Below, piece after piece: positions 1,403 to 42,546 of a stretch of 64,000 nt of DNA. The stretch is from Phreatobacter sp. (GTDB lineage Bacteria > Pseudomonadota > Alphaproteobacteria > Rhizobiales > Phreatobacteraceae). Below the pieces are notes generated by a model that made no database searches, was not told the DNA's origin, and saw only the letters and a list, made by a program, of their open reading frames with translations. The stretch's first letter is position 1; every line of letters begins with the position of its first letter. The position numbers and the translations under genes are program-made. The stretch is taken from assembly GCF_030691135.1 (NCBI RefSeq), contig NZ_JAUYFA010000063.1, positions 1 through 64,000 on the forward strand, in the 5' to 3' direction.

Positions 1403-2749
1403 ATGCCGTCGCCGCTTCTCGCGCCCCTCTTCGGTTCGCCCGCCATGGAGGCGGTCTGGTCGGATGAGGCGGCTGTCGTCGCCATGCTCCACTTCGAGGC
1501 GGCACTGGCAGTTGCCGAGGGCGAAGCGGGCGTCATACCGGCCTCGGCGGTCGTGCCGATCAATGCCGGCTGCATGATGCTCGACGTCGATATGGCGGCG
1601 CTGGCGGAAGCGGCCGGCATCGCCGGCAACACGGCGATCCCGCTCGTCAAGATGGCGACCGCAAAGGTGGCCGAAGCCGATCCGGAAGCCGCTAAATGGG
1701 TTCACTACGGCGCCACCAGCCAGGACGTGATGGATAGCGGCCTGGTGCTGCAACTGCGCTCGGCCTTCAAGCTCATCGAGGCCGATCTTGCCCGCGCCAT
1801 GGCCGCCGCCGCGGCGCTGGCGAAGGACCATCGCGACACGCCGATGGCCGGTCGCACCTGGCTGCAGCAGGCCCTGCCGATCACCTTCGGGCTGAAGATG
1901 GCGGGAACGCTCGATGCGCTGATGCGCCATCGCGAGCGGTTGGCCGAGGTCCGCCCGCGCATCCTCGCGCTGCAGTTCGGTGGCGCCGCCGGAACGCTCG
2001 CCTCGCTCGGCGGCAAGGGGCCGGAGGTCGCCCGCCTGCTCGCCCAGCGCCTCGACCTGTCGCTTCCCGACACGCCCTGGCACGGCCAGCGCGACCGCAT
2101 TCTCGAGGCCGCGAGCCTGATGGCGGGCCTCGTCGCCACCGCGGCCAAGGTCGCCCGTGACGTCGCCCTGATGATGCAGACGGAGGTCGGCGAGGTGCTC
2201 GAGCCTTCCGCGCCGGGCCGCGGCGGCTCCTCGACCATGCCACACAAGCGCAATCCGACACTCTCGGCCACCATCCTCGGTGCCGCTGGGCTCACGCCGC
2301 AACTCCTCGCCACCATCGCTGCCGGCGGCGCGGGCGAGCACGAGCGCTTCGCCGGCGGCTGGCAGTCGGAATGGCTGGCGCTGCCGGAGCTCGCCCGCCT
2401 CGCGGGCGGCGTCCTGGCCCGTCTAGCCGAACTCCTCGAGGGGCTGGAGGTGATGCCTGAGCGGATGCGCGTCAACCTCGACGCCACCGGCGGCCTTCTG
2501 ATGGCCGAAGCCGTGCAGATGGCGCTGGCGCCGGTGCTCGGCCGCCTCGCCGCCCATGACGTGATCGAAGCCGCATGCCGCAAAGCGACGGGCGAGGGCA
2601 GGGCGCTGCTCGACATGCTGGCCGAAGATGCCGCCATCGCGCCCCATGCGTCCCGCGATTGCCTCGCCGAACTCCTCGATCCCGCCGGCTATCTCGGCGC
2701 GGCGGGGATCTTTGTGGACCGGGTGCTAGAGCGGTATGCAGCCAGCTGA
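1403..2749 (+). CDS. pcaB: 3-carboxy-cis,cis-muconate cycloisomerase
   Basis: This enzyme cyclises beta-carboxymuconate to gamma-carboxymuconolactone in the protocatechuate branch of the beta-ketoadipate pathway. The 448-residue product belongs to the fumarase/aspartase (argininosuccinate lyase) superfamily. It shows the opening MPSPLLAPLFGSPAMEAVWSD, an early 'VHYGATSQDVMDS' region carrying a catalytic His/Ser environment (about residues 99-111), and the superfamily signature 'GGSSTMPHKRNP' near residue 275. The ATG at 1403 matches the family N-terminus; AAAGAGG (1391-1397) is its ribosome site. No other pca genes lie next to it, so the pathway must be completed elsewhere. It converges with matB, the stop codons being 2 bases apart. 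A related adenylosuccinate-lyase-like cyclase cannot be fully excluded. Confidence 0.85.
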   Translation: MPSPLLAPLFGSPAMEAVWSDEAAVVAMLHFEAALAVAEGEAGVIPASAVVPINAGCMMLDVDMAALAEAAGIAGNTAIPLVKMATAKVAEADPEAAKWVHYGATSQDVMDSGLVLQLRSAFKLIEADLARAMAAAAALAKDHRDTPMAGRTWLQQALPITFGLKMAGTLDALMRHRERLAEVRPRILALQFGGAAGTLASLGGKGPEVARLLAQRLDLSLPDTPWHGQRDRILEAASLMAGLVATAAKVARDVALMMQTEVGEVLEPSAPGRGGSSTMPHKRNPTLSATILGAAGLTPQLLATIAAGGAGEHERFAGGWQSEWLALPELARLAGGVLARLAELLEGLEVMPERMRVNLDATGGLLMAEAVQMALAPVLGRLAAHDVIEAACRKATGEGRALLDMLAEDAAIAPHASRDCLAELLDPAGYLGAAGIFVDRVLERYAAS

Positions 2750-2751
2750 AC

Positions 2752-4269
2752 TCAGCCGCCGTAGATGCCCTTGTAGGTCTCGCGCAGCACGTTCTTCTGC
2801 ACCTTGCCCATGGTGTTGCGGGGCAGATCGTCCACAACGATCACTCGCTTCGGCAGCTTGAACTTGGCCAGACGGGTCTCGAGGGCGGCGAGGATCGCAC
2901 CCTCGTCGAGCCGCGTGCCGGGGGTCGCGACCACCACGGCCGTGACGCCCTCGCCGAAATCGGGATGGGGGACGCCGATCACCGCGCTCTCGAAGACGCC
3001 GACCATGCCGTCGATCTCCGTCTCCACTTCCTTCGGATAGACGTTGTAGCCACCGGAAATGACGAGGTCCTTGCCGCGCCCGACGATATGGACATAGCCG
3101 TCGGCGTCGATCTTGCCGAGGTCGCCGGTGATGAAGAAGCCGTCTCCGCGGAATTCGGCGGCCGTCTTTTCCGGCATGCGCCAGTAGCCCTTGAAGACGT
3201 TCGGCCCCTTCACCTCGATCATGCCGATCTCGCCCTTCGCCACCTCGGTTCCCGTCTCCGGATCGGTGACGCGCAGGTCGACCCCAGGCAGCGGGAAACC
3301 GACCGTGCCGGCGACGCGCGCGCCGTCATAGGGGTTCGAGGTGTTCATGTTCGTCTCGGTCATGCCATAGCGCTCTAGGATCGCCTGGCCGGTCATCTCC
3401 TTGAAGGCGCGATGCGTCTCGGCGAGCAGCGGCGCCGATCCCGAGATGAAGAGGCGCATGTGACGCGTCGCGCCGGCGGTGAGGCGCTTGTCCTGGACGA
3501 GGCGCACGTAGAAGGTCGGGACGCCCATCATCGTCGTGGCGCGCGGCAGCAGTTCGAACACCTTGTCGGCATCGAACTTCGGCAGGAACAGCATGGTCGC
3601 GCCCGCCATCAGGATCGTGTTGGTGGCAACGAACAGGCCGTGGGTGTGGAAGATCGGCAGGGCGTGCAGCAGCACGTCGTCGCGGGTGAAGTGCCAGTAG
3701 TCCTTCAGCGTCAGCGCGTTGGAGGCGAGGTTGTCGTGGGTCAGCATAGCGCCCTTGGAGCGCCCTGTCGTCCCCGACGTGTAGAGGATGGCGGCCAGAT
3801 CGTCGGCGCCGCGGGTCACCGTGTCGAAGACCGGCTGTTCGGCGATTGCCTTCTGCCAGAGCGAGCCGTCCTTCCCCCGGCCGAGCGTCTCGACCGCCGG
3901 CACGCCGGTGCGGGCCGCCACTTCGGCGACACCTTCGCGGCGGGACGGATCGCAGACCACCATCGCCGGCTCGGCGTCGGAGAGGAAATACTCGATCTCG
4001 GCGAGCGTGTAGCCCGTATTGAGCGGAAGGAAGACGGCGCCCGCCCGGACACAGGCGAGATAGAGGAAGATCGCTCCTGGCGATTTCTCCACCTGCACCG
4101 CCACCCGGTCGCCGGGCTTCACCCCGTTAGCCACCAGCGCATTGGCGAAGCAGCCGGTCGCGGCGAACAAATCCTCATAGGTGAAGAGCGTGCCGTCCTC
4201 GGTCTCGATGAAGGTCTTGGTCGGATCGGTATCGAAGAGACGGACAAGATCGAAGAGGTGATTGGCCAT
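2752..4269 (-). CDS. matB: Malonyl-CoA synthetase (acyl-CoA synthetase family)
   Basis: The enzyme activates malonate (or methylmalonate) to the CoA thioester with ATP. The 505-residue ANL-superfamily protein has the P-loop 'ILYTSGTTGRSKGAMLTH' (about residues 161-178) and the A5 motif 'ERYGMTETNM'. The motif 'FFITGDLGKIDADGYVHIVGR' follows around residue 373. Then come the hinge 'GRGKDLVISGGYNVYPKEVE' and the C-terminal catalytic lysine in 'PRNTMGKVQKN'. 'GAVFLPLNTGYTLAE' and 'GGYNVYPKEVE' are typical of MatB rather than acetyl- or long-chain synthetases. The start ATG at 4269 has no strong ribosome site. It is a single gene, downstream of and co-oriented with the Amt-kinase gene (99 bases apart). 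Confidence 0.85.
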   Translation of the reverse strand: MANHLFDLVRLFDTDPTKTFIETEDGTLFTYEDLFAATGCFANALVANGVKPGDRVAVQVEKSPGAIFLYLACVRAGAVFLPLNTGYTLAEIEYFLSDAEPAMVVCDPSRREGVAEVAARTGVPAVETLGRGKDGSLWQKAIAEQPVFDTVTRGADDLAAILYTSGTTGRSKGAMLTHDNLASNALTLKDYWHFTRDDVLLHALPIFHTHGLFVATNTILMAGATMLFLPKFDADKVFELLPRATTMMGVPTFYVRLVQDKRLTAGATRHMRLFISGSAPLLAETHRAFKEMTGQAILERYGMTETNMNTSNPYDGARVAGTVGFPLPGVDLRVTDPETGTEVAKGEIGMIEVKGPNVFKGYWRMPEKTAAEFRGDGFFITGDLGKIDADGYVHIVGRGKDLVISGGYNVYPKEVETEIDGMVGVFESAVIGVPHPDFGEGVTAVVVATPGTRLDEGAILAALETRLAKFKLPKRVIVVDDLPRNTMGKVQKNVLRETYKGIYGG

Positions 4270-4368
4270 GGCTCAGCGGACGGTGCTCGGCGATGCGATC
4301 TGGGAACGCGGGAGGGCGGACCATGCCGCATCCCGTCGGTCAGGTCGAGGGGCGGGCAGCGGCGCCCG

Positions 4369-6573
4369 TCAGCCGGCGAGCGCCATAGGCTTGCCGAGAT
4401 GGTCGGCGCGGATGGTGGCACGAACCTGGGTCCCCGCCCCCGGCTTGGAGCGGATGGTCAGCGCGCCGCCATGCAGGTCGATCAGCTTCTTGACCAGGGC
4501 GAGGCCCAGTTCGTCCCCCTCGCCCACGCCTTCGGCCAGCGGGTCCAGGGCCTGCGCCAATTGCCCCGGCGATACGCCGGTGCCGGAATCGGTCACGTCC
4601 AGCACCAGTTCGCCGCCGGGCCCCTGTTTGACGGAGACATTGACGATGCCGCCGCGCGGGGTCGTGGCGATGGCGTTGTTGACGAGTTCGCCCATGATCT
4701 TGCGCAGTGCCGCCGCGTTGGCGGACATGGTGGAGACTTCCGGGGTCCAGACCACCCGGAACTTCACGCCCTTGGATTCCGCGCGCGGCCGGCAGAGCAG
4801 GTTGACCTCGCCGATGAGCTTTTCCATCGGCGCCTGGTCGCCGGCCGGCGGTCCCTCGATGGCGGAGGCCTGGGCATAGTCGAGCACGTCGGCGAGACGG
4901 CGGGCCAGCCTTGCCGATTCCTCGCGCGCCGCCTCGATCAGCGCATCGATGTCGTCCTGATGCCGGCTCGACGCGGCACGCCGCGCCATCAGGTGCAGGC
5001 GTTCGATCGGCTGGCGGAACGTTCTGCCTATCAGCCGCACGAGGCCCGAGCGCACGCCCTTGAGGTTTTCGACGGCGATCAGCGAGCGGGCGACCTGGTC
5101 GGTCAGGAAGGCGACCTCGCGCGTCGCCGAATCGAGCCTCGACTCGCGCTCATGCACCTCGCCGGAGAGCCGGGCATTGAGGTCGTTGGCCTGCTCGGCC
5201 GCTGCCTCTGCGAGGGAGAGCTTTTCCTTCACGCCCTTGATCTGCGCCTGGAAGATGTCGACGGCGCGGTTGTATTCGCGGGCGATCTGTCCGAGTTCGC
5301 CGTCGGAATCGGCCTCCAGATAGGCGAAGGCACCGGCATTCAAGTTGAGCGCCCCGAGCTGGCTGACCAGCATGGCGACGTCGGTCGTCATCGCGTGTTC
5401 GGTGACGTTCAGGCCGATGCGCTCCTCCTCGGGGCCGACCCTCAGGCGGATGACGTAGCGCAGGCCGAAGGTCGCGGCGCCCATGACCGCCGCCGACCAT
5501 GCGACGATGGCGAGCAGGCCGATGGCCTGCATGGTCAGGGTCGCAACGAGCGTGTCGGGCAGACAGAGGGCGACGGCGAGGACGCCGAGCATGCCGGGAA
5601 AAACGTGCGCGGAGGCGATGCCGAGGGCATCGTCGATCTCCAGGTGTTCGAGCGCCCGCCCGCCCGCGAGCGCAACCGCCGCCCCCGCCGCTCCGAGCCC
5701 GATCGCGCCGAGCGGATGAAGGAGGTGAGCCGCTGCCGATGCCGCCACGACGCCGGCGAGGGTCGCGTGGATGATATGGACGACGGTGACGCGGGACGGG
5801 CGGATCTGGTTGGCGAGGAAGGTCGCGGTGATCGCCGCGGCGCCGGCGAGAACGAGATTGATCACGACCGGAGCGATGGCGATGCCGGCGGCCATCGCCT
5901 GCCCGATGGCGATGCCGAACCAGCCGAGCCACAGCAGCATCACGCCGAGGGCGGCGAAGGGAAAGCTCTGGCTCTGCACCACGAGGGTTCGCCGGGTGCC
6001 GTTGAAGCGGCCTGTGCGGGCGCCGATGGCATAGGCGACCACCAGCGCGGCAGTGCCTCCGGCGACATGGATGACGCCGCCGCCGGCGAGGTCGATGAAG
6101 CCGAGCCCCTTGAGCCAGCCGGCGGTCTCTCCCTGTGCCCATGCCCAATGCAGGACGAAGGGGAGAACGCCGAGGCTGTATACCGCCACCAGTGCCGCAT
6201 AGCCGCGCAGCGTCGTGCGTTCCGCCAGCGGTCCGGACAGGAGCGTTGCCGCGGCGCAGGAGATGGCGAGCGCGAAGACAAGGTCCGATCCGCCGTCGGC
6301 GGGCATGAAGGGGCCGTTGCCGGCGAGGGGGCCGCCGGCATTCATGATGCCGTATCCGGCAGCCCAGACGATCAGCGTGGTGATCCCGACCTGGACGAGG
6401 AGCTTGGCGGCAGCGTTCACGCTGTGCTTCGCGCGTACCAGGCCGCTTTCCAGCGTGACGTGGCCGGCAAGGACGAGGAACACGCAGAGCGCGATGATGA
6501 CGGGCCAGAGCAGATCTTGCGGCGTCGGAGGCATCATGAAACCGGTGGCGAGACGCATCGCTCGCGATCGCAC
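4369..6573 (-). CDS. Ammonium-transporter/histidine-kinase fusion lacking the phosphoacceptor His
   Basis: Residues about 17-375 form an Amt/Rh-type membrane domain (about 11 helices). The first pore histidine is His169 in 'DLAGGGVIHVAGG' with Asp161 conserved. The second, His323 in 'DDALGIASAHVFPGMLG', aligns with AmtB His318. A coiled linker (440-500) leads to a dimerisation helix (505-567) and a HATPase domain (580-725). The N box (ELVNNAIATTP), G1 (VTDSGTGV) and G2 (GLALVKKLIDLHGG) are intact. The H-box reads 'IGRTFRQPIERL', so the place of the phosphorylated His is taken by Arg517. Related Amt5 sensor kinases detect ammonium; this one may be an ATP-binding pseudokinase. The first start is GTG at 6573; ATG at 6558 is equally possible. 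No response regulator is adjacent. Confidence 0.85.
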   Translation of the reverse strand: MRSRAMRLATGFMMPPTPQDLLWPVIIALCVFLVLAGHVTLESGLVRAKHSVNAAAKLLVQVGITTLIVWAAGYGIMNAGGPLAGNGPFMPADGGSDLVFALAISCAAATLLSGPLAERTTLRGYAALVAVYSLGVLPFVLHWAWAQGETAGWLKGLGFIDLAGGGVIHVAGGTAALVVAYAIGARTGRFNGTRRTLVVQSQSFPFAALGVMLLWLGWFGIAIGQAMAAGIAIAPVVINLVLAGAAAITATFLANQIRPSRVTVVHIIHATLAGVVAASAAAHLLHPLGAIGLGAAGAAVALAGGRALEHLEIDDALGIASAHVFPGMLGVLAVALCLPDTLVATLTMQAIGLLAIVAWSAAVMGAATFGLRYVIRLRVGPEEERIGLNVTEHAMTTDVAMLVSQLGALNLNAGAFAYLEADSDGELGQIAREYNRAVDIFQAQIKGVKEKLSLAEAAAEQANDLNARLSGEVHERESRLDSATREVAFLTDQVARSLIAVENLKGVRSGLVRLIGRTFRQPIERLHLMARRAASSRHQDDIDALIEAAREESARLARRLADVLDYAQASAIEGPPAGDQAPMEKLIGEVNLLCRPRAESKGVKFRVVWTPEVSTMSANAAALRKIMGELVNNAIATTPRGGIVNVSVKQGPGGELVLDVTDSGTGVSPGQLAQALDPLAEGVGEGDELGLALVKKLIDLHGGALTIRSKPGAGTQVRATIRADHLGKPMALAG

Positions 6574-33023: not shown

Positions 33024-33227
33024 ATGACCACCATCAAGCTGCAGATCCCGCCGGACCTTCTGGCCGCGGTCGATCGTTTCATCGAGGAAGAGGTGCCCGA
33101 GGTGAGCCGCCCCGACGCGCTGCTCGCCGCCCTGCGCGCCTGGGCCGTCGGCAACGGGCTCATGCTCTCCTGGCGCGGCCCGCAGGAGCCGCCCGCGACC
33201 TGGCCGCAGGCGGCGAACGACGGGTGA
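33024..33227 (+). CDS. Small ribbon-helix-helix-like protein (67 aa)
   Basis: A 67-residue protein beginning 'MTTIKLQIPPDLLAAVDRFI'. The short beta stretch (TIKLQIP) followed by two amphipathic helices ('DLLAAVDRFIEEEV', 'SRPDALLAALRAWAVGNGL') is the pattern of MetJ/Arc-type DNA-binding antitoxins. The tail 'ATWPQAANDG' is of unknown role. No partner toxin is adjacent. A diverged copy of the last 13 codons and stop recurs at 38329-38372 on the other side of the phosphite block (EPPATWPQAANDG here, GPRATWPQAANDG there), with mostly synonymous differences. The ribosome site is weak. Confidence 0.6.
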   Translation: MTTIKLQIPPDLLAAVDRFIEEEVPEVSRPDALLAALRAWAVGNGLMLSWRGPQEPPATWPQAANDG

Positions 33228-33269
33228 GGGGCGGAGACAGCGGTTCGACCGCGCGATCACGCTGCAAAC

Positions 33270-33311
33270 GGGTGCGACAGGGATCGACCTGTGACTCCAC
33301 CCGTGTGAAGG
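33270..33311 (-). repeat. Decayed 3' fragment of tRNA-Val, att-like scar
   Basis: This stretch matches the 3' part of the intact tRNA-Val(CAC) gene at 42476-42518, from the anticodon loop to the acceptor end. It is in the same orientation, with four substitutions and one deleted base in the T loop. The 5' half is absent. Integrases often use precisely this part of a tRNA gene as attachment site, so it is a plausible left end of an integrated element. No integrase remains. Confidence 0.65.
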
Positions 33312-33353
33312 CCAAGAAGTGAGCCGCTTCGGTCGAGATTCGACTTTCAACGG

Positions 33354-34193
33354 CTATTTGAGGTTGCGCCTCAGCCAGGCGCCGATGGCGTCAACAATCA
33401 GGACACAGGCAAGGATGGTCAGCAGGATCGCGCTGACCTGATCATATTTGATCAGCCGCAGGGCCGCGATGAGTTCGAAGCCGATACCGCCGGCGCCGAC
33501 GATTCCGAGCACGGCGGAGGCACGGAAATGATACTCCCACCTGTAGATCGTCACATCGGCGAGTTGCGGCAACACCTGCGGCAGCACAGCGTGGCTGATC
33601 ACTTGAACAGACGTGGCCCCGGCAGCACGCGCTGCTTCCAGCGGGCGTGGATCGACGTGCTCGATCGCCTCTGCGTAGAATTTACCCACCATGCCGACCG
33701 AGTGGAGAGCCAGCGCCAGGACACCCGGCAGCGCACCGAAGCCGACGGCGGCAACGAACAGGATGCCCATGATAATCTCGGGCACCGAACGCAGGAACGA
33801 CAGCAACGTCCGCACGATGTGCATCAAGATTGGATGGGGAGTTGTGTTCGGGGCCGCGAGGATCGCCAGCGGCAGTGATAGGATGACGGCGAGCACTGTG
33901 CCGGCAATCGACATGGCGAGCGTATCCAGCAGTGGCCTCATCCAGTTGCGCCAACGCCCGAAATCAGGCGGCACCATCTCGCTGAACAGCTGGCCCAGAG
34001 CAGGAAGGCCATCGTTGAACCGTTCGGCATCGAAGAAGCCGGTGATTGCGAGCGCTGCGATGCAGATCAAGCCGATGCCGCCCATGATCACAAGGCGACG
34101 CAGCCCGGCTGCACGCTCTTGGGAGAGCAGTGCGTCATGACGAACAAGACTGGAAGTGACCTGTCGGGCAGGCAGTGGTGCGAGGTTGTTCAT
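33354..34193 (-). CDS. ptxC: Phosphite/phosphonate ABC transporter permease
   Basis: A 279-residue inner-membrane permease of the PhnE type, with six predicted helices. The cytoplasmic coupling motif reads 'EAARAAGATSVQVISHAVLPQVLP', given as residues 183-206, the EAA loop that contacts the ATPase. The family words 'RSVPEIIMGILFVAAVGFG' and 'IVGAGGIGFELI' are present. It is the last gene of the cluster; its ATG overlaps the stop of ptxB by four bases (34190-34193). Assignment to phosphite rather than phosphonate rests on the linked ptxD and the absence of C-P lyase genes. Confidence 0.85.
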   Translation of the reverse strand: MNNLAPLPARQVTSSLVRHDALLSQERAAGLRRLVIMGGIGLICIAALAITGFFDAERFNDGLPALGQLFSEMVPPDFGRWRNWMRPLLDTLAMSIAGTVLAVILSLPLAILAAPNTTPHPILMHIVRTLLSFLRSVPEIIMGILFVAAVGFGALPGVLALALHSVGMVGKFYAEAIEHVDPRPLEAARAAGATSVQVISHAVLPQVLPQLADVTIYRWEYHFRASAVLGIVGAGGIGFELIAALRLIKYDQVSAILLTILACVLIVDAIGAWLRRNLK

Positions 34194-35068
34194 CCGCGCA
34201 CTTTGGTCAGGTCGAGATCAAGCACCTTCGCAGTGTCGCGCAGGACATCGTAAGCCTTGTCGTCGGTGGCCGCGAAGCCCTGTACGCGGAAGGCCTTCAG
34301 GATTTCAGGGTCCTGGAGGCCGATGAAGGCCTCGCGGATACGCGCTTTCAGTTCAGGTGCAAGATTGCCCTGCATGACCATCGGATAATTGGGAATGGGA
34401 TCAGACAGGCCGATCTCGATGATCTTGGACTTGTCGACCGTACCGCGTGACGTCAGATTGTCGAGAATGGCTTTCGAAAGTCCACCAGCCGGAACCTGCC
34501 CGTTCTGGACGGCGCGTGCGACCGCGTCATGCGTGCCCAGATGTACGGCCTGATAGTCGCGACCGGCGATCAGGTCGCGATTGGCGAGGAAGGCGCGCGG
34601 GATCAGGTGGCTCGATGTTGAGGCCTGATCACCGAAAGCAAAGGACTTGCCCTTGATGTCTTCAACCTTGGCAACGAGGCCGCCAGCCTGGGCGATCAGC
34701 ACGCCGTTGTAGGTCGGCGAGCCACGCTCGATGCCGACGGCGAAAGGCTCGAGTTCTGGTGCGCGTGACTTCGCGAGCACGTAGGAAAGCGGGCCGAAAT
34801 AGGCAATCTCGATGCGTCCGAAACGGGCTGCCTCGATCATCGAAGAATAGTCGGTTGTAACCACGAGCTCGACGCTTCTGGCCAACACTTTTTCAAGATG
34901 CAGCCTGAGCGGCTCGGCGTTCTGGATGATCGTGGCCGCATTTTCATCCGGCAACAGCGCCACACGGATGCGCGAGGGATTGCGCGTCTGCGCCAAGGCC
35001 GGGAGGGTCTGTGCGCCGATGGCGGCAGCCGAGAGTGCCATCAGGATGCGACGGTTCAACATGGTCAT
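34190..35068 (-). CDS. ptxB: Phosphite/phosphonate-binding periplasmic protein
   Basis: A 292-residue receptor of the PhnD/PtxB family. The signal peptide (MLNRRILMALSAAAIGAQTLPALAQ, residues 3-27) ends before 'TRNPSRIRVALLP'. The pocket motif 'VVTTDYSSMIEAARFGRIEIAYFGPLSYVLA', given as residues 68-98, contains the Tyr/Ser/Thr residues that hold the oxyanion. 'FAFGDQASTSSHLIPRAFL' holds the second set of Ser/Thr/His ligands typical of phosphite and phosphonate binders. The start overlaps ptxA by four bases. GC content is lower than that of the flanking chromosome. Confidence 0.86.
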   Translation of the reverse strand: MTMLNRRILMALSAAAIGAQTLPALAQTRNPSRIRVALLPDENAATIIQNAEPLRLHLEKVLARSVELVVTTDYSSMIEAARFGRIEIAYFGPLSYVLAKSRAPELEPFAVGIERGSPTYNGVLIAQAGGLVAKVEDIKGKSFAFGDQASTSSHLIPRAFLANRDLIAGRDYQAVHLGTHDAVARAVQNGQVPAGGLSKAILDNLTSRGTVDKSKIIEIGLSDPIPNYPMVMQGNLAPELKARIREAFIGLQDPEILKAFRVQGFAATDDKAYDVLRDTAKVLDLDLTKVRG

Positions 35069-35850
35069 GCGACAAGCTCCATGGCGGAATGATCAAGGTT
35101 TTTCGCAGCACCAACCATCGGCGCTGTCTGATAAAGGCGGGTGATGTCGAGTTCGCTGAGGTCCGTTGGCTTGCCGTCGAACACGACCTCACCATGGGCT
35201 AAACCAATGATCCGGTCGGCAAAGCGGCGTGCGAAGTCGAGTTGGTGAAGTGAAACGACCGCTGTCAGTCCGTCCTGCTTGGCGATGCCGTGAATGAGCG
35301 AAAGCACGGCCTCCGCAGTGGCCGGGTCAAGACTGGCAACGGGCTCGTCGGCGAGGATAATGTCCGGCTGCTGCACCAGCGCGCGGGCGATCCCGACCCG
35401 CTGTTGCTGGCCTCCGGACAGCTGGTCAGCACGACGCAAAGCGTATTCGATCAAGCCGACGCGCTCGATGGCTGACAGGGCCCTCAGCCGCTCGTCGCGC
35501 CCAAACGGGAACAATGTGCGCAAGCTGTTATGGTAGCCAAGCCGGCCCATGAGGACATTTTCGAGCACGCTCGAACGTCCGATCAACTGATGTTGCTGAA
35601 AGATCATCCCGGTGCGGCGGCGATGACTGCGTAAGTTCGCGCCGCTGCTCAACGGCCCGAAATCTGCTGTGACGACTTTGCCCGAGGTGGGCTTCACGAG
35701 CCCGTTGAGGGCCCGGAGCAGCGTAGACTTGCCCGCGCCTGAGGCCCCGAGCAGCACAGTAAAGGCGCCGCGCTCAAAGCTGAGCGTCGTCGACTTCAGC
35801 GCAGGCGCTGCTTGGCCATACGAAACGGACAACGCCTCTACTGTGATCAC
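35065..35850 (-). CDS. ptxA: Phosphite/phosphonate ABC transporter ATP-binding protein
   Basis: A 261-residue ATPase of the PhnC type. Walker A is 'GASGAGKST', followed by '[14 protein letters not shown]'. The Q-loop is '[20 protein letters not shown]', the signature '[15 protein letters not shown]', Walker B '[12 protein letters not shown]', and the switch His is in '[10 protein letters not shown]'. The frame is open to 35964, but the family N-terminus '[12 protein letters not shown]' points to the GTG at 35850. GGTGGG lies just upstream. The gap to ptxE is 64 bases, so it may have its own weak promoter. Confidence 0.87.
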
Positions 35851-35914
35851 GACCCACCTGCTGATTGCAAATAGAGATGAAAAGGAGCGTTTGATTGAGA
35901 TCAATAATATCGGT

Positions 35915-36808
35915 TCAGCTTGACAGCGATGTGACAGCCTCATTCCGGGCGAGGTGTGCTCCAAACAATCTGGCGGGTGCCGCGATTGGCAGACTGCTTG
36001 GCGTGGCCGCCCACAAGGCTTTGGTCATGGGCGCATCGGCGACCGTCAACGCCACCAGCAACCCGGCTGCCACCTCTTCCGCAACGGTCGCATGCAGGAC
36101 GATGGAGATGCCGAGACCAGCCATGACGGCCCGCTTCACCGCTTCTGTCGAACCCAAAACAGGACCAATCTTCAGCCGCCGCGCCAGTTCCGCACCAAGC
36201 GCCTGTGCGAGCACGCGCCCGGTCCCGGTGCCGGCTTCGCCACCAATCATGGGCTGGTCAGTCAGCTCTTCAGGGTTGACAACGCTCCGCCCAGCCCAGG
36301 CGTGACCAGGCGGCACAATGACGACCAAAGGCTCGTGCCGCCAGCAAAACGCCTGAAAGCCATCTGTCTCGGTCCACCACTCGGTGAGTGCGATATCAAC
36401 TTCGCCATGTTGCAGGCGTTCGATCACGGTCGGGTTGGGTCCAATGCTCCAGCCGACAGGCTTGGCCGTCGGGTAAACTTCGCAGAACCCTTTGACCGCC
36501 GGTGGCAGCAGATAGATCCCGATATTCGAGGCCGCACCGATCACGAGCCGGTCTGGTTGCACGGATATCCGCGCCTGTTCCTCCGCCTGGAGCAGGCGTT
36601 TCGCGTGGGGCAGGAAGGCCAAGCCTTTCGGCAGGGCCCAACATCCGGCGTTGCTGCGCGCAACCAGACCTGTCCCGAGGGCCTCTTCCAGTTTGCGGAT
36701 ATGCTGCGAAACGGTTGGCTGCGCCAGACCGAGCCGTTTGGCGGCTTCATGGAAGCTGCCGCAAGCCACCACGGCGACAAAACTGCGCACCTGAGCAAGA
36801 TCAAGCAT
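35915..36808 (-). CDS. ptxE: LysR-type regulator of phosphite oxidation
   Basis: A 297-residue LysR-type regulator. The N-terminal winged helix is 'VRSFVAVVACGSFHEAAKRLGLAQPTVSQHIRKLEEALG', given as residues 7-45, with the recognition helix around 'AQPTVSQHIRKLE'. The C-terminal periplasmic-binding-like domain covers about 95-290. Its ATG overlaps the end of ptxD by eight bases, so it is translated from the same message. In the Pseudomonas stutzeri ptxABCDE operon the fifth gene is also a LysR regulator of unclear effect. Here it lies between dehydrogenase and transporter. Confidence 0.83.
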   Translation of the reverse strand: MLDLAQVRSFVAVVACGSFHEAAKRLGLAQPTVSQHIRKLEEALGTGLVARSNAGCWALPKGLAFLPHAKRLLQAEEQARISVQPDRLVIGAASNIGIYLLPPAVKGFCEVYPTAKPVGWSIGPNPTVIERLQHGEVDIALTEWWTETDGFQAFCWRHEPLVVIVPPGHAWAGRSVVNPEELTDQPMIGGEAGTGTGRVLAQALGAELARRLKIGPVLGSTEAVKRAVMAGLGISIVLHATVAEEVAAGLLVALTVADAPMTKALWAATPSSLPIAAPARLFGAHLARNEAVTSLSS

Positions 36809-37823
36809 GCGACATGTCTGCCGTGGCTGGCGACGTCAGAGTATTGGGACTGCTCCGTCCTGCAAGGACATCGATAATGTCTTGCGCTGCACTCATCGCG
36901 ATCGCGCGCCTGACATCGTCGACTGCCGAACCCAGATGCGGCGTGAAAAATGTCGCGTGGTGGGCCAGTAGCCGCGGCGGGATCGTTTTGGGTCTGTCGG
37001 GCTTTGCCCAGTCCTCAAATGCAAAAACATCGGCGGCGTAGCCACCGAGGTGCCCGCTTTCCAGAGCTGAAGCCACTGCACTCTCGTCGACGATCGAGCC
37101 ACGGGCAGGGTTGACCAGCAATGCGCCGGGTTTCATCGCGGCCAGCATCGAGGCGTTGAACAGCCCATCGGTGTGCTGGTTGAGCGGCAGCGCCAAAACC
37201 ACTACGTCGCTGTTGGCCAGAAGGTCGGGCAGTCCGACGATGCGTGCCGGGGTGCAACTCTCCGGTTCAAGTGGCCGTTCATCAAAGGCGAGAACCGTCG
37301 CGCCAAGTGCTGCAAACGGTGCCACCAGTGCTCGTCCCACAGCGCCTTGTCCGACCACGCCCAAGGTGGCTCCTGCCAGCCCACTTCCGTAAAGCACTGG
37401 CTTCCATCCGACGAATTGACCCGAACGCACCATGGCATCGCCATGCCGCAGATTGCGCGCCAGACCGATCGTCAGCCCGACCGTCAGTTCAGCGGTTGGA
37501 ACCGTCAGCAGATCCGGCACAAAGGTCACGGTCACCCGATGCCGCATGCAGGCATCAATGTCGAAATTGTCCGCCCCCTTGAGGGCGCAGGCGATCACCT
37601 TCAATTTTGGTGCTTCGCGAAGAAAGGCGTCATCAACGCAATCGGTCATGAACGCCATCATCGCGTCAGCACGTGCCATCCGGCTCGCAAGCTCACCAGG
37701 CGGCAAGGGTTCCTGCGAGTCATTCGCGACCACCTCACAGCCCTGACCCAGATTCTCTCGCAAGTGAGAGAGAACCTCTGGGTGGACCCAGTTGGTCAAG
37801 ACAACGACGGGGGACAGCGGCAT
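36801..37823 (-). CDS. ptxD: Phosphite dehydrogenase (NAD-dependent)
   Basis: The enzyme oxidises phosphite to phosphate with NAD. The 340-residue D-hydroxyacid-dehydrogenase-fold protein follows the P. stutzeri PtxD pattern throughout: 'DAMMAFM', 'CALKGADNFD', 'TFVPDLLTVPTAEL', 'GALLVNPARGSIVDE', 'GGYAADVFAFEDWA' and 'FTPHLGSAV'. Catalytic residues align: Lys82 (PtxD K76), Met59 (M53), Arg241 (R237), Glu270 (E266), His296 (H292); also Trp140 and Tyr145. The Rossmann loop is 'GQGAVG', and Asp181 after the second strand favours NAD over NADP. ATG 37823 is used; the frame extends further upstream without homology. It is the first gene of the cluster. Local GC is clearly below the surroundings. 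Confidence 0.93.
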   Translation of the reverse strand: MPLSPVVVLTNWVHPEVLSHLRENLGQGCEVVANDSQEPLPPGELASRMARADAMMAFMTDCVDDAFLREAPKLKVIACALKGADNFDIDACMRHRVTVTFVPDLLTVPTAELTVGLTIGLARNLRHGDAMVRSGQFVGWKPVLYGSGLAGATLGVVGQGAVGRALVAPFAALGATVLAFDERPLEPESCTPARIVGLPDLLANSDVVVLALPLNQHTDGLFNASMLAAMKPGALLVNPARGSIVDESAVASALESGHLGGYAADVFAFEDWAKPDRPKTIPPRLLAHHATFFTPHLGSAVDDVRRAIAMSAAQDIIDVLAGRSSPNTLTSPATADMSHA

Positions 37824-38127
37824 CGACGATCGCCTAATCAAATTGATGCGCGATCTTGATTGCGTTTGATGACTGGCCTGTGACGTTGGTCGGCCGTTGA
37901 CCTGCCACGGAGCTTTTCCTCGACGCGGAGTTCGAGCCCGGCCCTTCGAAGAACGGACAGATGAAGCGGGAACGGTCCACGGAAGAGCAGACACCGCCAC
38001 CCGGGACGCGACCAGACGATTGATCCGTTGGCCTGAGCAGACGATGTTTCCTATCGTCCGCAGTCCATTTCGGGAATGTCGGTTTTCGCCGCTATTGGGC
38101 CTCGAGTCGTGCTTCCATGGGTGCTGA

Positions 38128-38328
38128 ATGATCCGGACCGCGATGATTTATGCCAAAGTCGGCGCTCTGATCCTGTTTGGGTTTTCACAAGCCAGCGCCG
38201 CCGAGACCCGCCCGTGCTCGAGGGGTTTGCACCGCTCGACGCGCTGTCGGTTTACGAAGGGGCCTGTCTGTACGGGGAGGCAGATGCCGGGTTTTCGCGG
38301 TTTGACCTGCCGGTCGGCCCGATGAGGG
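38128..38328 (+). pseudogene. Fragment of a secreted-protein gene, frameshifted
   Basis: The first 29 codons encode a signal-like peptide ending in ASA. One base missing in the C run near 38211-38214 shifts the frame. After it an acidic, globular-looking stretch (LEGFAPLDALSVYEGACLYG) runs to about 38325 and stops at the border of the copied small-gene tail. I do not recognise the family. That the two frames belong together is an inference from continuity of composition. Confidence 0.35.
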
Positions 38329-38372
38329 GCCGCGCGCGACCTGGCCCCAGGCCGCCAACGACGGGTGAGGGG
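38329..38372 (+). repeat. Partial copy of the 3' end of the 33-kb small gene
   Basis: About 44 bases equal 33184-33228 with roughly six differences. Several of these are synonymous in the shared frame (coding ...RATWPQAANDG then stop TGA). The copy lies in direct orientation 5.1 kb away, on the other side of the phosphite genes. Sequence similarity ends abruptly on both sides, the mark of a recombination junction. Confidence 0.75.
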
Positions 38373-38447
38373 GCTCACGCCCGGCCCCCGCACACTGGCA
38401 TGACGCCCGGCCCCAGCGCCGGGCTCTTCATTCCTGCCGCCTCGCGG

Positions 38448-39722
38448 TCAGCGATACCAGAGCGTCGGCAGCGCCGTGGTGAACCACGGGAAGACCGAGA
38501 TCAGCACCAGCACGATCAGCAGCGGCACGAGGAAGGGCGTCACGCCCGCCACCGTCCGCTCGAACGAGATGTTGGCGACCTTCGACAGCACGAAGAGCAC
38601 CATGCCGACGGGCGGCGTCAGCAGCCCGATCATCAGGTTCAGCACCATCACCACGCCGAACTGTACCGGATCAATGCCGACCTTGAGGATGATCGGCATG
38701 AAGATCGGCACCAGGATCGAGATGGCGGCGATGGTCTCCATGAAGCAGCCGACCACCAGCAGGAAGAGGTTGATGAGCAGCATGATCAGCAGCGGATTGT
38801 CGGTGATCGACAGCAGCCCCGTGGCGATCGCCTCGGTGACGCGCGTGGTGGTCAGCACCCAGCCGAAGAGCGACGCGGCGGCCACGATAATGAGCACGCT
38901 GGCGGTGGTCTCGATGGTCTCCAGCGTGATGCGGTAGAACTGCTTGAGCGACAACGACCGGTAGAGCAGCGCCCCGAGCAGCAGCGCCCAGGCACAGGCC
39001 GCGATCGCCGCCTCTGTTGGAGTGAAGATGCCCAGCGACATGCCGCCGATGATGAGCGCCGGTGTGAACAGCGCCGGGATCGCGCGGACGAAGGTTTGCC
39101 CCAGCGCCTTCATCCGGAACACCTGGTCGCGGCCGATCCCGTGCCGGCGTGCATACCATGTGACATAGAACATCAGGATCACGGCCATCAGGACGCCGGG
39201 AATGAGCCCGCCGGCGAAGAGCTGGCCGATGGAGACATTGCCGACGACGCCGAAGATCACCATCGGCAGCGAGGGCGGGATGATCGGCCCGATGGTCGAC
39301 GAGGCCGCAGTGATGCCGACGGCGAACTCGTCCTTGTAGCCATGGTCGCGCATGGCCTTGATCTCGATCGTGCCGAGGCCACCGGCATCCGCCACGGCCG
39401 TGCCCGACATGCCCGCGAAGATCACCGACCCCACGACATTCACGTGGCCGAGGCCGCCCTTCATCCACCCGACCGCCGAGACGGCGAAATCATAGATGCG
39501 GTTGGTGATGCCGGCGGTATTCATCAGGTTGCCGGCGAGGATGAAGAAGGGCACCGCGAGCAGCGGGAAGGAATCGACGCCTCCCGCCATGCGGTGCAGC
39601 ACCACGAAGTCCGGGATCATGGTCTCGAACTTGATGTAAGCGAGCGATCCCGCCGCCAGTGCCACGAAGATCGGCGTACCAAGGAGCAGAAGGATCAGAA
39701 AGATGCCGAAAAGCCAGAACAT
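38448..39722 (-). CDS. dctM: TRAP transporter large permease (DctM type)
   Basis: A 424-residue inner-membrane permease of usual DctM length, with about twelve helices. Motifs: 'LLAVPFFILAGNLMNTAGITNRI', given as residues 54-76, 'GMSGTAVADAGGLGTIEIKAM', 'GPIIPPSLPMVIFGV', 'IFTPTEAAIAACAWALLLGAL' and 'GLLTPPVGMVLFV'. It forms the sodium-driven transport channel for an organic acid. It follows dctQ by 9 bases and is the last gene of the operon dctP-dctQ-dctM on the minus strand. The substrate is unknown. Confidence 0.9.
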   Translation of the reverse strand: MFWLFGIFLILLLLGTPIFVALAAGSLAYIKFETMIPDFVVLHRMAGGVDSFPLLAVPFFILAGNLMNTAGITNRIYDFAVSAVGWMKGGLGHVNVVGSVIFAGMSGTAVADAGGLGTIEIKAMRDHGYKDEFAVGITAASSTIGPIIPPSLPMVIFGVVGNVSIGQLFAGGLIPGVLMAVILMFYVTWYARRHGIGRDQVFRMKALGQTFVRAIPALFTPALIIGGMSLGIFTPTEAAIAACAWALLLGALLYRSLSLKQFYRITLETIETTASVLIIVAAASLFGWVLTTTRVTEAIATGLLSITDNPLLIMLLINLFLLVVGCFMETIAAISILVPIFMPIILKVGIDPVQFGVVMVLNLMIGLLTPPVGMVLFVLSKVANISFERTVAGVTPFLVPLLIVLVLISVFPWFTTALPTLWYR

Positions 39723-39731
39723 GCTGCGCCC

Positions 39732-40286
39732 TCAATCGATGATGAGGCCCTGACGGGCCGGGTCCGGGCGCCACCCGCGGCGGGCATTGGCGATGAACAT
39801 CTGGCCGGCGCGCCAGAGCATGAGCAGGCAGCCGACAAGGATGCCGCCGTAGACGATGCTCATCGACAGGTCGAAGACCGTCATGCGTTGGATTTCCATG
39901 CGCTCGGTCACCTGCCACGCGTACCAGACGAGCAGGGCGACGAAGCCGAGAACGATGACGTCGATGAGGAAGTTGAGCAGGCGCACCACCGGTTCGGGGA
40001 GGAACTGGTGGAGCACCTCCACCGCGATGTGGTTGCGTCGGCGCATGGCCACCGCCGAGCCGACGAAGGTGACCCACATCAGCAGATAGCGGGCGATCTC
40101 CTCCGTCCATGAGAAGGACGAGTTGAGGATGTAGCGGGAGAAGAACTGCAGGAAGACGACGAAGGCCATCAGCCAGAACAGGGCGAAGGCGATCCAGTCC
40201 TCGGGATAGTGCTCGATCCGCACGTCCGGGTCTTCGACGACGATCAGATGCTCCGCGCCGGGCGCGGTCGGGGGCTGCGGTGACAT
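39732..40286 (-). CDS. dctQ: TRAP transporter small permease (DctQ type)
   Basis: A 184-residue four-helix membrane protein. The conserved DctQ part is 'FSRYILNSSFSWTEEIARYLLMWVTFVGSAVAMRRRNHIAVEVL', given as residues 50-93. It contains the W-T-E-E-x-x-R-Y motif and the arginine-rich loop before His-Ile. Long N- and C-terminal tails are hydrophilic. AAGG precedes the ATG. It lies between dctP (99 bases upstream) and dctM (9 bases downstream). Confidence 0.88.
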   Translation of the reverse strand: MSPQPPTAPGAEHLIVVEDPDVRIEHYPEDWIAFALFWLMAFVVFLQFFSRYILNSSFSWTEEIARYLLMWVTFVGSAVAMRRRNHIAVEVLHQFLPEPVVRLLNFLIDVIVLGFVALLVWYAWQVTERMEIQRMTVFDLSMSIVYGGILVGCLLMLWRAGQMFIANARRGWRPDPARQGLIID

Positions 40287-40385
40287 GGGAACCTTGCCGG
40301 GCAGGCGGTGTGGGACGCTGCAGGGGACGGTGGCGCCGGCAAAGGCACCACCGTCTCGATGTCGGGCGGAGAAGGCGCCGCCGCC

Positions 40386-41396
40386 TCAGCTGGAGGAGGC
40401 AAGCCCCTGGAGCGCGTCGTACTCGGCCTTTGACCAGCCGGCACCCGAGGCCGCATCGTTGTGCAGCGGCACCGCCACGGCCCGGAACGCCGCGCGGTCA
40501 GGCGCGATGACGGTCTTGCCGAGCTTGCGGAACTCCTCGGCGAGCTTCTGCTCGCTCTCGCGGATATGGTCAGATGCGCGGGAGGCGGCCTCCATCAGCA
40601 CGTCGGAGAAGATCTTCTTCTCGGCGTCGTTCAGCCGGGCCCAGACGTGGCTGCCGACGATCGACAGCAGCGATTCCGTGATGTGGCCGGTGAGCATGAT
40701 GTGGCTCTGCACCTCGTAGAACTTCTTCGCCATGATGGTGGGAAGCGGGTTCTCCTGGCCGTCGACCGTGCCCTGCTGCAGGGCCAGATAGACCTCGGCG
40801 AAGGCGATCGGCGTCGCGTTGGCGCCGACCGACTTGGTGAACATCAGGAAGAGCGGCGCCGGCGGCACGCGCAGCTTCATGCCGCGCATGTCCTCGGGCT
40901 TGTTGATCGCACGGTTGGCGGTCACATGGCGCTCGCCGTAATAGGTGAGGGCGGTCACCTTGTGGCGGGTGCGGCCCTCGTAGCCCGCGGCGATCTGCCT
41001 GAACAGCGGCGAGTCGCGATAGGCCTTCCAGTGGTTGAAGTCGCGCAGCACATAGGGCGCGTTGGTGATGGCGATCGGCCTGTGGATCGAGCCGGCGAAG
41101 GCGACGCCGGTATAGATGATATCGACCGCCCCGAGACCGAGCGCCTCGTTGATCTGGTTCTCGTTGCCGAGTTGCGAGGCAGCGAAAACATCGATCTGGT
41201 ACTTGCCGTTGGTGCGCTTGGCGATTTCCGCCGCGGCCCAGAGGGCATCGGTGTGATAGGCCTCGCCCGTCTCGTAGACATGGGCCCATTTCAGCTTCGT
41301 CTGCTGGGCGCGCAGCGGCGTGGCGCCGAAGGGGCCGATCGCGGTCGTTGCAAGTCCCGCGCCCGCGATCAGGGCGTTGCGGCGTGTGATGGTCAT
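40386..41396 (-). CDS. dctP: TRAP transporter substrate-binding protein (DctP type)
   Basis: A 336-residue periplasmic receptor. A Tat-like signal (MTITRRNALIAGAGLATTAI, residues 1-20) ends near 'LRAQQTKLKW'. DctP features: 'HVYETGEAYHTDALWAAAEI', 'VFAASQLGNENQINEALGLG' and the arginine motif 'DMRGMKLRVPPAPLF', whose Arg clamps the ligand carboxylate. 'EVYLALQQGTVDGQENPLPTI' is the helix that ends the second lobe. GGGAGG seven bases before ATG gives strong translation. It is the first gene of the operon, 94 bases after the GntR gene. It differs clearly from the TakP-like protein at 11.5 kb, so the ligand differs. Confidence 0.9.
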   Translation of the reverse strand: MTITRRNALIAGAGLATTAIGPFGATPLRAQQTKLKWAHVYETGEAYHTDALWAAAEIAKRTNGKYQIDVFAASQLGNENQINEALGLGAVDIIYTGVAFAGSIHRPIAITNAPYVLRDFNHWKAYRDSPLFRQIAAGYEGRTRHKVTALTYYGERHVTANRAINKPEDMRGMKLRVPPAPLFLMFTKSVGANATPIAFAEVYLALQQGTVDGQENPLPTIMAKKFYEVQSHIMLTGHITESLLSIVGSHVWARLNDAEKKIFSDVLMEAASRASDHIRESEQKLAEEFRKLGKTVIAPDRAAFRAVAVPLHNDAASGAGWSKAEYDALQGLASSS

Positions 41397-41490
41397 GGGG
41401 TGTCCTCCCTACCCGTGGTGATGGTGTGATGGGCGGTTGATCCGCCGCTTGTTGCCGCAGGGTCCTTCGGGACCTGGCGGTGAATGGGCT

Positions 41491-42219
41491 TCAGGCGCGC
41501 TTCAGGTCGGGCCGCCCGCTATCCTCCACGAAAAAATCGGGGTTAAAGTGCTTAAGATCCTCGGTCCCGAGCTTGAGGCCGTCGATATGCCGGCCGAGCG
41601 CCTCAGCCGCGGCATCCGGCCGGCGCTGCTCAAGGGCATGCAGAACCGCCTCATGCTCGGCCACCACACGCGCCATCCGCCCCGCAAGCGGCAAGGTCAG
41701 GCGGCGGAACCGGTCGACCTGCAGCTTGACATGCCGGACTAGCGCCCAGACGCCGGGATGGCCGCCCGCCGCCGCGATCGCCTCGTGGAAGGCCTCGTCG
41801 GCGCGGTGGAAGGCCTCGGTATCGCCGGCCTCCGCCGATTCCGCCATGCGCGCCAGGATGGCGCCGAGCGCGATGATTTGGCTTTTCGTCGCGCGTTCCA
41901 CGGCAGCGCGCACCGCATGCTGCTCCAGAACGCGCCGGATGGTAATGGCTTCGGGAAGGTCGGCCAGCGGAATGCGCGAGACATAGGTCCCGGACTTCGA
42001 GACGATGTCCACCAGACCCTCGTCCGAGAGGCGGAGCAGGGCCTCGCGGACCGGCGTGCGGCTGACGCCGTGCTGGGCGGCGATGTCCTTCTCGTTGAGC
42101 TGAGAACCCGGAGCGAGGCGGAGCGACAGGATATCGTCGCGCAACAGGCCATGGACCGCCGTCGCCGCCGTCCGGCCGCGTGACGCCCTGTCCCGTACTC
42201 CGCCGATCACTGTCAGCAT
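41491..42219 (-). CDS. GntR-family (FadR/FCD) transcriptional regulator
   Basis: A 242-residue regulator. The winged helix-turn-helix (about residues 18-85) contains 'LAPGSQLNEKDIAAQHGVSRTPVREALLRLSDEGLV', given as residues 37-72, the GntR signature. The FCD ligand domain (about 95-220) holds Asp/His residues of the metal site ('HRADEAFHEAI', 'HEAVLHAL'). The family usually represses transport genes until a carboxylate ligand binds. AGGAG six bases before ATG 42219 sets the start; the frame extends to 42333 without homology. Two palindromes lie across its own promoter, so self-control and control of dctPQM are likely. Confidence 0.9.
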   Translation of the reverse strand: MLTVIGGVRDRASRGRTAATAVHGLLRDDILSLRLAPGSQLNEKDIAAQHGVSRTPVREALLRLSDEGLVDIVSKSGTYVSRIPLADLPEAITIRRVLEQHAVRAAVERATKSQIIALGAILARMAESAEAGDTEAFHRADEAFHEAIAAAGGHPGVWALVRHVKLQVDRFRRLTLPLAGRMARVVAEHEAVLHALEQRRPDAAAEALGRHIDGLKLGTEDLKHFNPDFFVEDSGRPDLKRA

Positions 42220-42225
42220 AGCCGC

Positions 42226-42259
42226 TCCTGATATGACAGGTACACCTGATATATCAGGT
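42226..42259. promoter_or_regulatory. Tandem operator of the GntR regulator
   Basis: ACCTGATATATCAGGT (42244-42259) is a perfect 16-bp palindrome. TCCTGATATGACAGGT (42226-42241) is a second, imperfect copy, 18 bases away centre to centre, that overlaps the regulator's ribosome site. Short, symmetrical sites in front of the own gene are the rule in this family. Confidence 0.8.
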
Positions 42260-42471
42260 TGGCAACGGGTTCCGGGAGAGCATGCGGGTGGCGCCGGGGA
42301 TCGGGTGTCGAAACGCCATAAGGAGCGCGCCACCGTCCAGGATCACGGGCGGCGGCGACCGCCATCCCGGCGTGACCCGGAGCACGATCCCAATGCTGGT
42401 GTCAGGCGAGTTCCGGGCCGGACAGGCGGCGCCACGCATCGCCATCGGTTCGGCTGGTCAGTCATAGAGAA

Positions 42472-42546
42472 TGGTGGGCGCGACAGGGATTGAACCTGTG
42501 ACCCCTCCCGTGTGAAGGGAGTGCTCTCCCGCTGAGCTACGCGCCC
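42472..42546 (-). tRNA. tRNA-Val (anticodon CAC)
   Basis: The minus strand folds as a full cloverleaf. The acceptor stem is GGGCGCG / CGCGCCC, the D arm GCTCAGCGGGAGAGC, and the anticodon stem CTCCC/GGGAG with loop TTCACAC (anticodon CAC, reading GUG). The T arm is CACAGG-TTCAATC-CCTGTC... The 3' CCA is encoded (42472-42474). It is the intact counterpart of the fragment at 33270-33311. Confidence 0.97.

Follow-up and report, generated by a model that had tools for sequence, protein, structure and literature searches.

How did a bacterium of the genus Phreatobacter obtain a complete set of genes for the oxidation of phosphite, and how did these genes come to stand in the order ptxD-ptxE-ptxA-ptxB-ptxC? 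The genes are located at positions 33270–38372 of the window, which is the whole stretch of 64,000 nucleotides (nt) analyzed here (contig NZ_JAUYFA010000063.1 of Phreatobacter sp.). Phosphite use is patchy, and at this locus a single acquisition can be seen together with its two edges, the empty site, debris of mobile elements in two layers and an altered gene order. The account favored here, with moderate confidence, is that the block is a foreign island, that its operon is a fusion of a ptxDE and a ptxABC module, that its entry was by recombination of the integrase type, with the 3' end of a 67-amino acid (aa) gene as the target, and that it serves assimilatory phosphite use. The direct repeats at its edges, the tRNA-Val and IS3 relics and the probable two-module origin are additions to the initial annotation, which was made from the sequence alone.

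That annotation described a five-gene phosphite-oxidation operon in the order ptxD-E-A-B-C. The description is borne out by the open reading frames (ORFs), by PDB, NCBIfam and Pfam matches and by conserved residues. On the minus strand, from position 37823 down to 33354, the genes are:

36801–37823, minus strand: ptxD, phosphite dehydrogenase (best PDB match 6ih4, E 3.1e-101)
35915–36808, minus strand: ptxE, LysR-family regulator (Pfam LysR_substrate 1.8e-38, HTH_1 1.7e-17)
35065–35850, minus strand: ptxA, ATPase of the PhnC type, GTG start assumed (TIGR02315, 299 bits, cut-off 266.1)
34190–35068, minus strand: ptxB, phosphite-binding protein (PDB 5o2j, E 1.1e-82; D41, Y74, Y120 and Y228 kept)
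33354–34193, minus strand: ptxC, permease of the PhnE type (TIGR01097, 295.5 bits, cut-off 216.7)

ptxD and ptxE overlap by 8 nt, and the ptxA/ptxB and ptxB/ptxC overlaps are 4 nt each; a gap of 64 nt separates ptxE from ptxA. PtxA and PtxC score above the curated NCBIfam cut-offs for PhnC and PhnE, respectively.

The assignment of PtxD is clear. Each of the 14 top sequences in the PDB is a phosphite/phosphonate dehydrogenase (E 3.1e-101 to 2.6e-98); among them are solved enzymes from Ralstonia sp. 4506 and from P. stutzeri. The best match outside this group has an E value of 2.5e-43. Residues M59, K82, R241, E270, H296 and S299, which we take to have catalytic roles, are present and are invariant across a 7-member PtxD alignment. 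A tree that also includes nine other D-2-hydroxyacid dehydrogenases, with one outgroup row on a very long branch, places the protein inside the PtxD group, and the split has a support of 94/82. Phylogeny and PDB matches both place the enzyme with the phosphite dehydrogenases, as the initial annotation had proposed. For PtxB, the top three PDB matches are structures of phosphite-binding proteins (E 1e-82 to 2e-78), and in NCBIfam the protein is above the cut-off of the phosphate/phosphite/phosphonate-binding subfamily and below that of PhnD. The pocket residues of P. stutzeri PtxB given in the accessible part of PMC5700983 are D16, Y49, Y94 and Y203; they correspond to D41, Y74, Y120 and Y228, so that all four are kept. 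It is very improbable that the transporter and dehydrogenase act on a different compound, such as a phosphonate or a 2-hydroxy acid. The Pfam and NCBIfam matches are indeed generic (phosphonate transporter, D-2-hydroxyacid dehydrogenase) and no PtxD-specific model was matched, but solved phosphite dehydrogenases match PtxD with E values as low as 3e-101, everything else being no better than E 2.5e-43, PtxD is separate from the nine other dehydrogenases, and the four PtxB pocket residues described in PMC5700983 are retained.

From these identities, PtxB would capture periplasmic phosphite for import by PtxA and PtxC, and PtxD would oxidize it with NAD to phosphate and NADH, with PtxE as the putative regulator. 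PtxD has an aspartate aligned with D175 of the Ralstonia enzyme (PMC8047080), from which a preference for NAD is predicted. An operon for ordinary assimilatory phosphite use is thus well supported by sequence. None of the genes ptdCFGHI, the ptd genes of the dissimilatory ptx-ptd system as named in the accessible part of PMC11933879, is found within the island, which contains the five ptx genes only; this search covered the island and not the rest of the genome.

The gene order was compared with that of 111 other ptxD loci, classified by tblastn with the five proteins of the window. These consist of 80 of at least 288 relatives found in genome contigs, 12 and 7 loci from samples of 397 genomes of the order and 385 of the class, G009 and G034, and ten plasmid stretches chosen among some 700 records with a match. 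Independent cases are fewer, as the set includes two or more pairs of duplicate records and many near-identical Pseudomonas loci. With lower case for the opposite strand, the orders are ABCDE (68), ABCD (8), acbED (6), DE (6), cbaDE (5), D alone (4), cbaD (3) and nine other kinds (11 loci). All five genes are present in 82 of the 111, and the order D-E-A-B-C is present in none. A literature search, which left out most subscription papers, gave no title or abstract opening on this order and no paper with the string ptxDEABC. The locus is a new variant, in that the kind of function is known and the architecture and probable history are new. Compared with ptxABCDE of P. stutzeri WM88 and its relatives (e.g., loci L087 and L095), the window has the same five gene kinds on one strand and the same PtxD and PtxB residues. 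It differs in that D-E are ahead of A-B-C (the accessible part of PMC5698055 gives A-B-C-D-E for P. stutzeri), and its PtxD is approximately 52% identical to the P. stutzeri type. The PtxD of another locus, L056, matches the P. stutzeri structures. A tandem ptxD pair, in the order A-B-C-D-D, is present in a metagenome-assembled genome (MAG) of Nitrospirae (L079, 6973–8984).

The block is an acquired foreign island of approximately 5.1 kb. Its mean guanine-plus-cytosine (GC) content is 61.3% vs 67.2% in the flanks, and it represents the lowest-GC 5.1-kb stretch in the 64 kb; 0.04% of stretches of this size are equally low. GC at third codon positions is 0.66–0.74 in the five ptx genes and 0.89–0.91 in six flanking genes, with values of 0.87 and 0.78 in two further in-frame flanking ORFs; three out-of-frame flank entries are left out of this comparison. 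A foreign composition, as noted in the initial annotation, is present, but the contrast described there (50–57% vs about 70%) overstates these means. Comparison with close relatives at the same site shows that the block is absent in three congeners, G009, G002 and G007, where the flanks adjoin each other directly and the end sequence occurs once, i.e., an empty site. The empty site and the foreign composition substantiate the horizontal acquisition proposed earlier. Two traits of an integrative island are seen: relatives have the empty site, and a direct repeat flanks the block on either side. The features that define its edges are:

33024–33227, plus strand: 67-aa target gene, whose 3' end is the left island edge
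33184–33231: left repeat copy, with a 12-bp (base pair) core CGCGACCTGGCC at 33194–33205
38325–38372: right repeat copy, the displaced native gene end, with the core at 38335–38346

Orthologues of the 67-aa gene are found in eight of the 11 congeners with 87–99% identity. A Pfam search of its product gave nothing above cut-off, and to our knowledge the gene is not a known integration site. The 3'-terminal part of this gene is present at each end of the island, as a 48-bp direct repeat with 90% identity between the copies. From ACCTGGCC through the stop codon, the right copy does not differ from the native gene end of G009, and native flank follows it without a break. The 67-aa gene itself still terminates in the left copy, where three C-to-G differences set it apart from the right one, each of them synonymous. 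The sequence GCGGCG at the second and third differences is absent from the seven congener gene ends read (seven of the eight congeners with the gene were readable, and G005 was left out). No second copy of the gene end was found in eight congener stretches beyond short partial matches of 12–24 nt. A synonymous end of this type is the pattern of an element that would carry a substitute gene end and recombine at a short core. A drifted duplication as the origin of the repeat would predict more change in the free copy than in the coding copy, and the opposite is observed.

Two relics of mobile elements are present inside the island:

33270–33311, minus strand: degenerate relic of tRNA-Val(CAC) just after ptxC, comprising the 3' half (anticodon through 3' end)
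37893–38008, plus strand: terminus of an IS3-family element, including the start of its transposase gene, 70 nt upstream of ptxD

The tRNA-Val relic is 88% identical over 43 columns to the resident tRNA-Val (E 2e-9), which is intact at 42472–42546, 9 kb away. The relic stretch is matched in 10 of the 11 congeners, in eight of them at the level of the resident tRNA-Val, which shows that it is derived from a tRNA gene, native or foreign. The IS3 end is matched in G007, G011, G003 and other genomes, and on plasmids by transposase ends annotated as IS3. Because tRNA 3' halves and IS3 ends are common in mobile DNA, the two relics suggest that the block formerly resided on another element. Integrative islands at the 3' ends of genes and tRNAs restore the gene end with element-borne sequence and have a repeat at the far end and a tRNA 3'-half relic. 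The island in the window has such a repeat and relic, may likewise have restored the gene end, and differs in that it is without an integrase; it looks like a scarred mobile element that lacks an integrase of its own.

A different mode of entry has to be considered for the same fused operon, namely homologous or illegitimate recombination with DNA from a relative that already carried the island at this position, with no site-specific recombinase acting in this lineage. The contig without an integrase is in keeping with this, as is CCGCGACCTGGCCGCAGGC, which is common to the left copy, G004 and G011. Gene content between the 67-aa gene and the tRNA-Val gene (window 33024–42546; L221–L228) also differs between congeners, which makes this region a place of cargo turnover. 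However, the single copy at the empty site, the short identical core and the one-sided replacement of the coding end fit site-specific insertion better, and recombination with a relative merely shifts the first insertion to another place. We consider it an unlikely explanation, though one to be kept in mind. In the window and in G009, G002 and G007, this region contains, by visual inspection of ORF translations, a tripartite ATP-independent periplasmic (TRAP) transporter operon that includes a GntR regulator. Also by eye, it is approximately 1 kb in G005 and G010, has different genes in G001 and has additional genes in G007.

The order of the operon raises the question of its ancestry. In a tree of concatenated A-B-C, the window and the ABCD cluster of G009, which lacks E, are sisters with a support of 100/99. 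Identities between the two are 73% (PtxA), 79% (PtxB) and 78% (PtxC), and 54% for PtxD. In the PtxD tree the window protein is near Afipia/Xanthobacter/Ciceribacter and Rhodospirillaceae forms, with modest support. With constraint groups picked after the trees had been viewed, approximately unbiased (AU) tests reject a grouping of PtxD with the PtxD of G009 (p 0.0035 and 0.006), with G009 plus two Acetobacteraceae (p 0.0013) and with three DE-only loci, L108, L118 and L163 (p 0.0105). The best identities of PtxE are 50–52%, to L065/L191 (ABCDE) and to DE loci. As A-B-C is sister to the G009 cluster and PtxD is not, the operon is probably a fusion, in which a DE module was put ahead of an ABC module whose original D was gone.

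E-less ptxABCD clusters (G009 L048; Pseudolabrys and Acetobacteraceae, L083, L122, L126 and L129) have the nearest A-B-C, but they are without ptxE, have D after C, and their PtxD is not sister to that of the window. The ptxDE pairs (L108, L118, L163, L192, L196/L202) and divergent cbaDE clusters have E directly after D, and PtxE is 50–52% identical to some of them, but there is no same-strand A-B-C downstream. The htxABCD-ptxDE operon of Alcaligenes faecalis, as described in the accessible part of PMC5698055, likewise has ptxDE joined to a transporter of other origin, but there the transporter genes lead and the system is for hypophosphite. The locus in the window points to ptxDE and ptxABC as modules that can move independently of each other.

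The order D-E-A-B-C can also be obtained exactly by rotation of A-B-C-D-E, which is the most frequent order (68/111). A ptxABCDE operon excised as a circle or duplicated in tandem, and re-opened between C and D, would produce it with no mixing of lineages, and the repeat ends of the island are compatible with this. Such a circular permutation is nevertheless quite improbable; A-B-C is sister to the E-less ABCD of G009, yet the grouping of PtxD with the G009 protein is rejected, and no trace of the former C-D joint survives shuffling at the DNA level. In that comparison the 43-nt tail after ptxC was searched for a former ptxD start against eight C-D junctions, and at least 61 of 300 shuffles reached the score everywhere. 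The tail read as a peptide was reached by 2–4 of 500 shuffles for three PtxD proteins and 16–283 of 500 for four others, and no former start is claimed.

Several observations weigh against the combination of module fusion and integrase-type entry. PtxD constrained to group with the complete ABCD set is not rejected (p 0.334), the other constraint groups were chosen with the trees in view, and the PtxD branch of the window is long (0.82–0.84). The PtxE tree does not settle the placement of that protein. The first of the three synonymous differences is also present in G001, G004 and G011, which places part of the left copy within the variation of the genus. Rfam detects the resident tRNA-Val and not the 43-nt relic, which rests on DNA matches. 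The island has no integrase gene, and the genome has five Phage_integrase matches (E <= 1e-8), none of them on this contig, in a search that did not include serine recombinases; a recombinase is for this reason something that we can only infer.

The favored account, a fused operon inserted by site-specific recombination, would comprise the following steps. A ptxD-ptxE module would have been placed ahead of a ptxA-ptxB-ptxC module, and the resulting operon would have been carried by an element now reduced to the tRNA-Val 3' half and the IS3 end. Integrase-type recombination at the 3' end of the 67-aa gene would then have brought the island into this genome. The element would have supplied a synonymous replacement of the gene end, and the old end would have been left on the far side.

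A further feature is located between the two putative modules:

35891–35904, in the ptxE-ptxA gap: perfect dyad TTGAT-N4-ATCAA, a possible PtxE site

This dyad has the shape of those bound by LysR proteins, and it has no other exact copy in the 64 kb. Upstream of ptxD there are just three-mismatch forms of it and one shorter dyad. Since the sole perfect LysR-type dyad precedes ptxA and not ptxD, A-B-C may have its own control. A meaningful role for translating oxidation first, as put forward in the initial annotation, is not supported. The presence of ptxDE in first position with such a dyad before ptxA raises the question of whether oxidation and uptake are under separate control. A more specific proposal, which is tentative and rather doubtful, is that the island represents an integrase-less nutrient cassette moved in trans, site-specific for the end of the 67-aa gene, with its own synonymous tail, an operon of two ancestries and two control points (before ptxD and in the ptxE-ptxA gap). 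The dyad with at most one mismatch is found in three of 88 distinct upstream regions vs 0.76 expected from shuffles, and it is not claimed as a conserved PtxE operator or family motif. Three sigma-70-like promoter matches are present in the block vs 0.8 +/- 0.9 in shuffled sequence, one of them on the minus strand approximately 300 bp upstream of ptxD; these were not used.

PtxD at E <= 1e-75 is found in 14 of the 397 genomes sampled from the order and in 8 of the 385 from the class, which is Alphaproteobacteria. Two genomes of the class have PtxD rows identical to those of Rhodospirillaceae ECT2AJA-110-B and Thalassobaculum sp. OXR-137. Among the 385 class genomes, the sole PtxB match at E <= 1e-90 is that of the window itself. 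Within the genus, two of 12 genomes have PtxD at E <= 1e-75, that of the window and G009, at different sites. The ptxABCD cluster of G009 (L048, about 2100–5602) is on another contig and, by eye, directly follows a sigma-32-like gene; the two loci are two separate ptx acquisitions within one genus.

An IMG/VR scan for viral ptxD gave no relatives among 132 pattern matches. Of phage records, 25 match PtxD; the ten listed have 31–36% identity and, where annotated, are other dehydrogenases. PtxD relatives (E <= 1e-60) are found on 701 plasmid records, 577 of them named Klebsiella and 543 predicted to be conjugative, which makes ptx genes a common plasmid cargo. The ptxDE pairs of Thalassobaculum (L202, 2091–6864) and of a Rhodospirillaceae MAG (L118, 6372–9889; by eye) adjoin metallo-beta-lactamase (MBL)-fold hydrolases, and that of Thalassobaculum also adjoins a major facilitator superfamily (MFS) transporter. 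Such stand-alone ptxDE pairs possibly depend on another uptake route.

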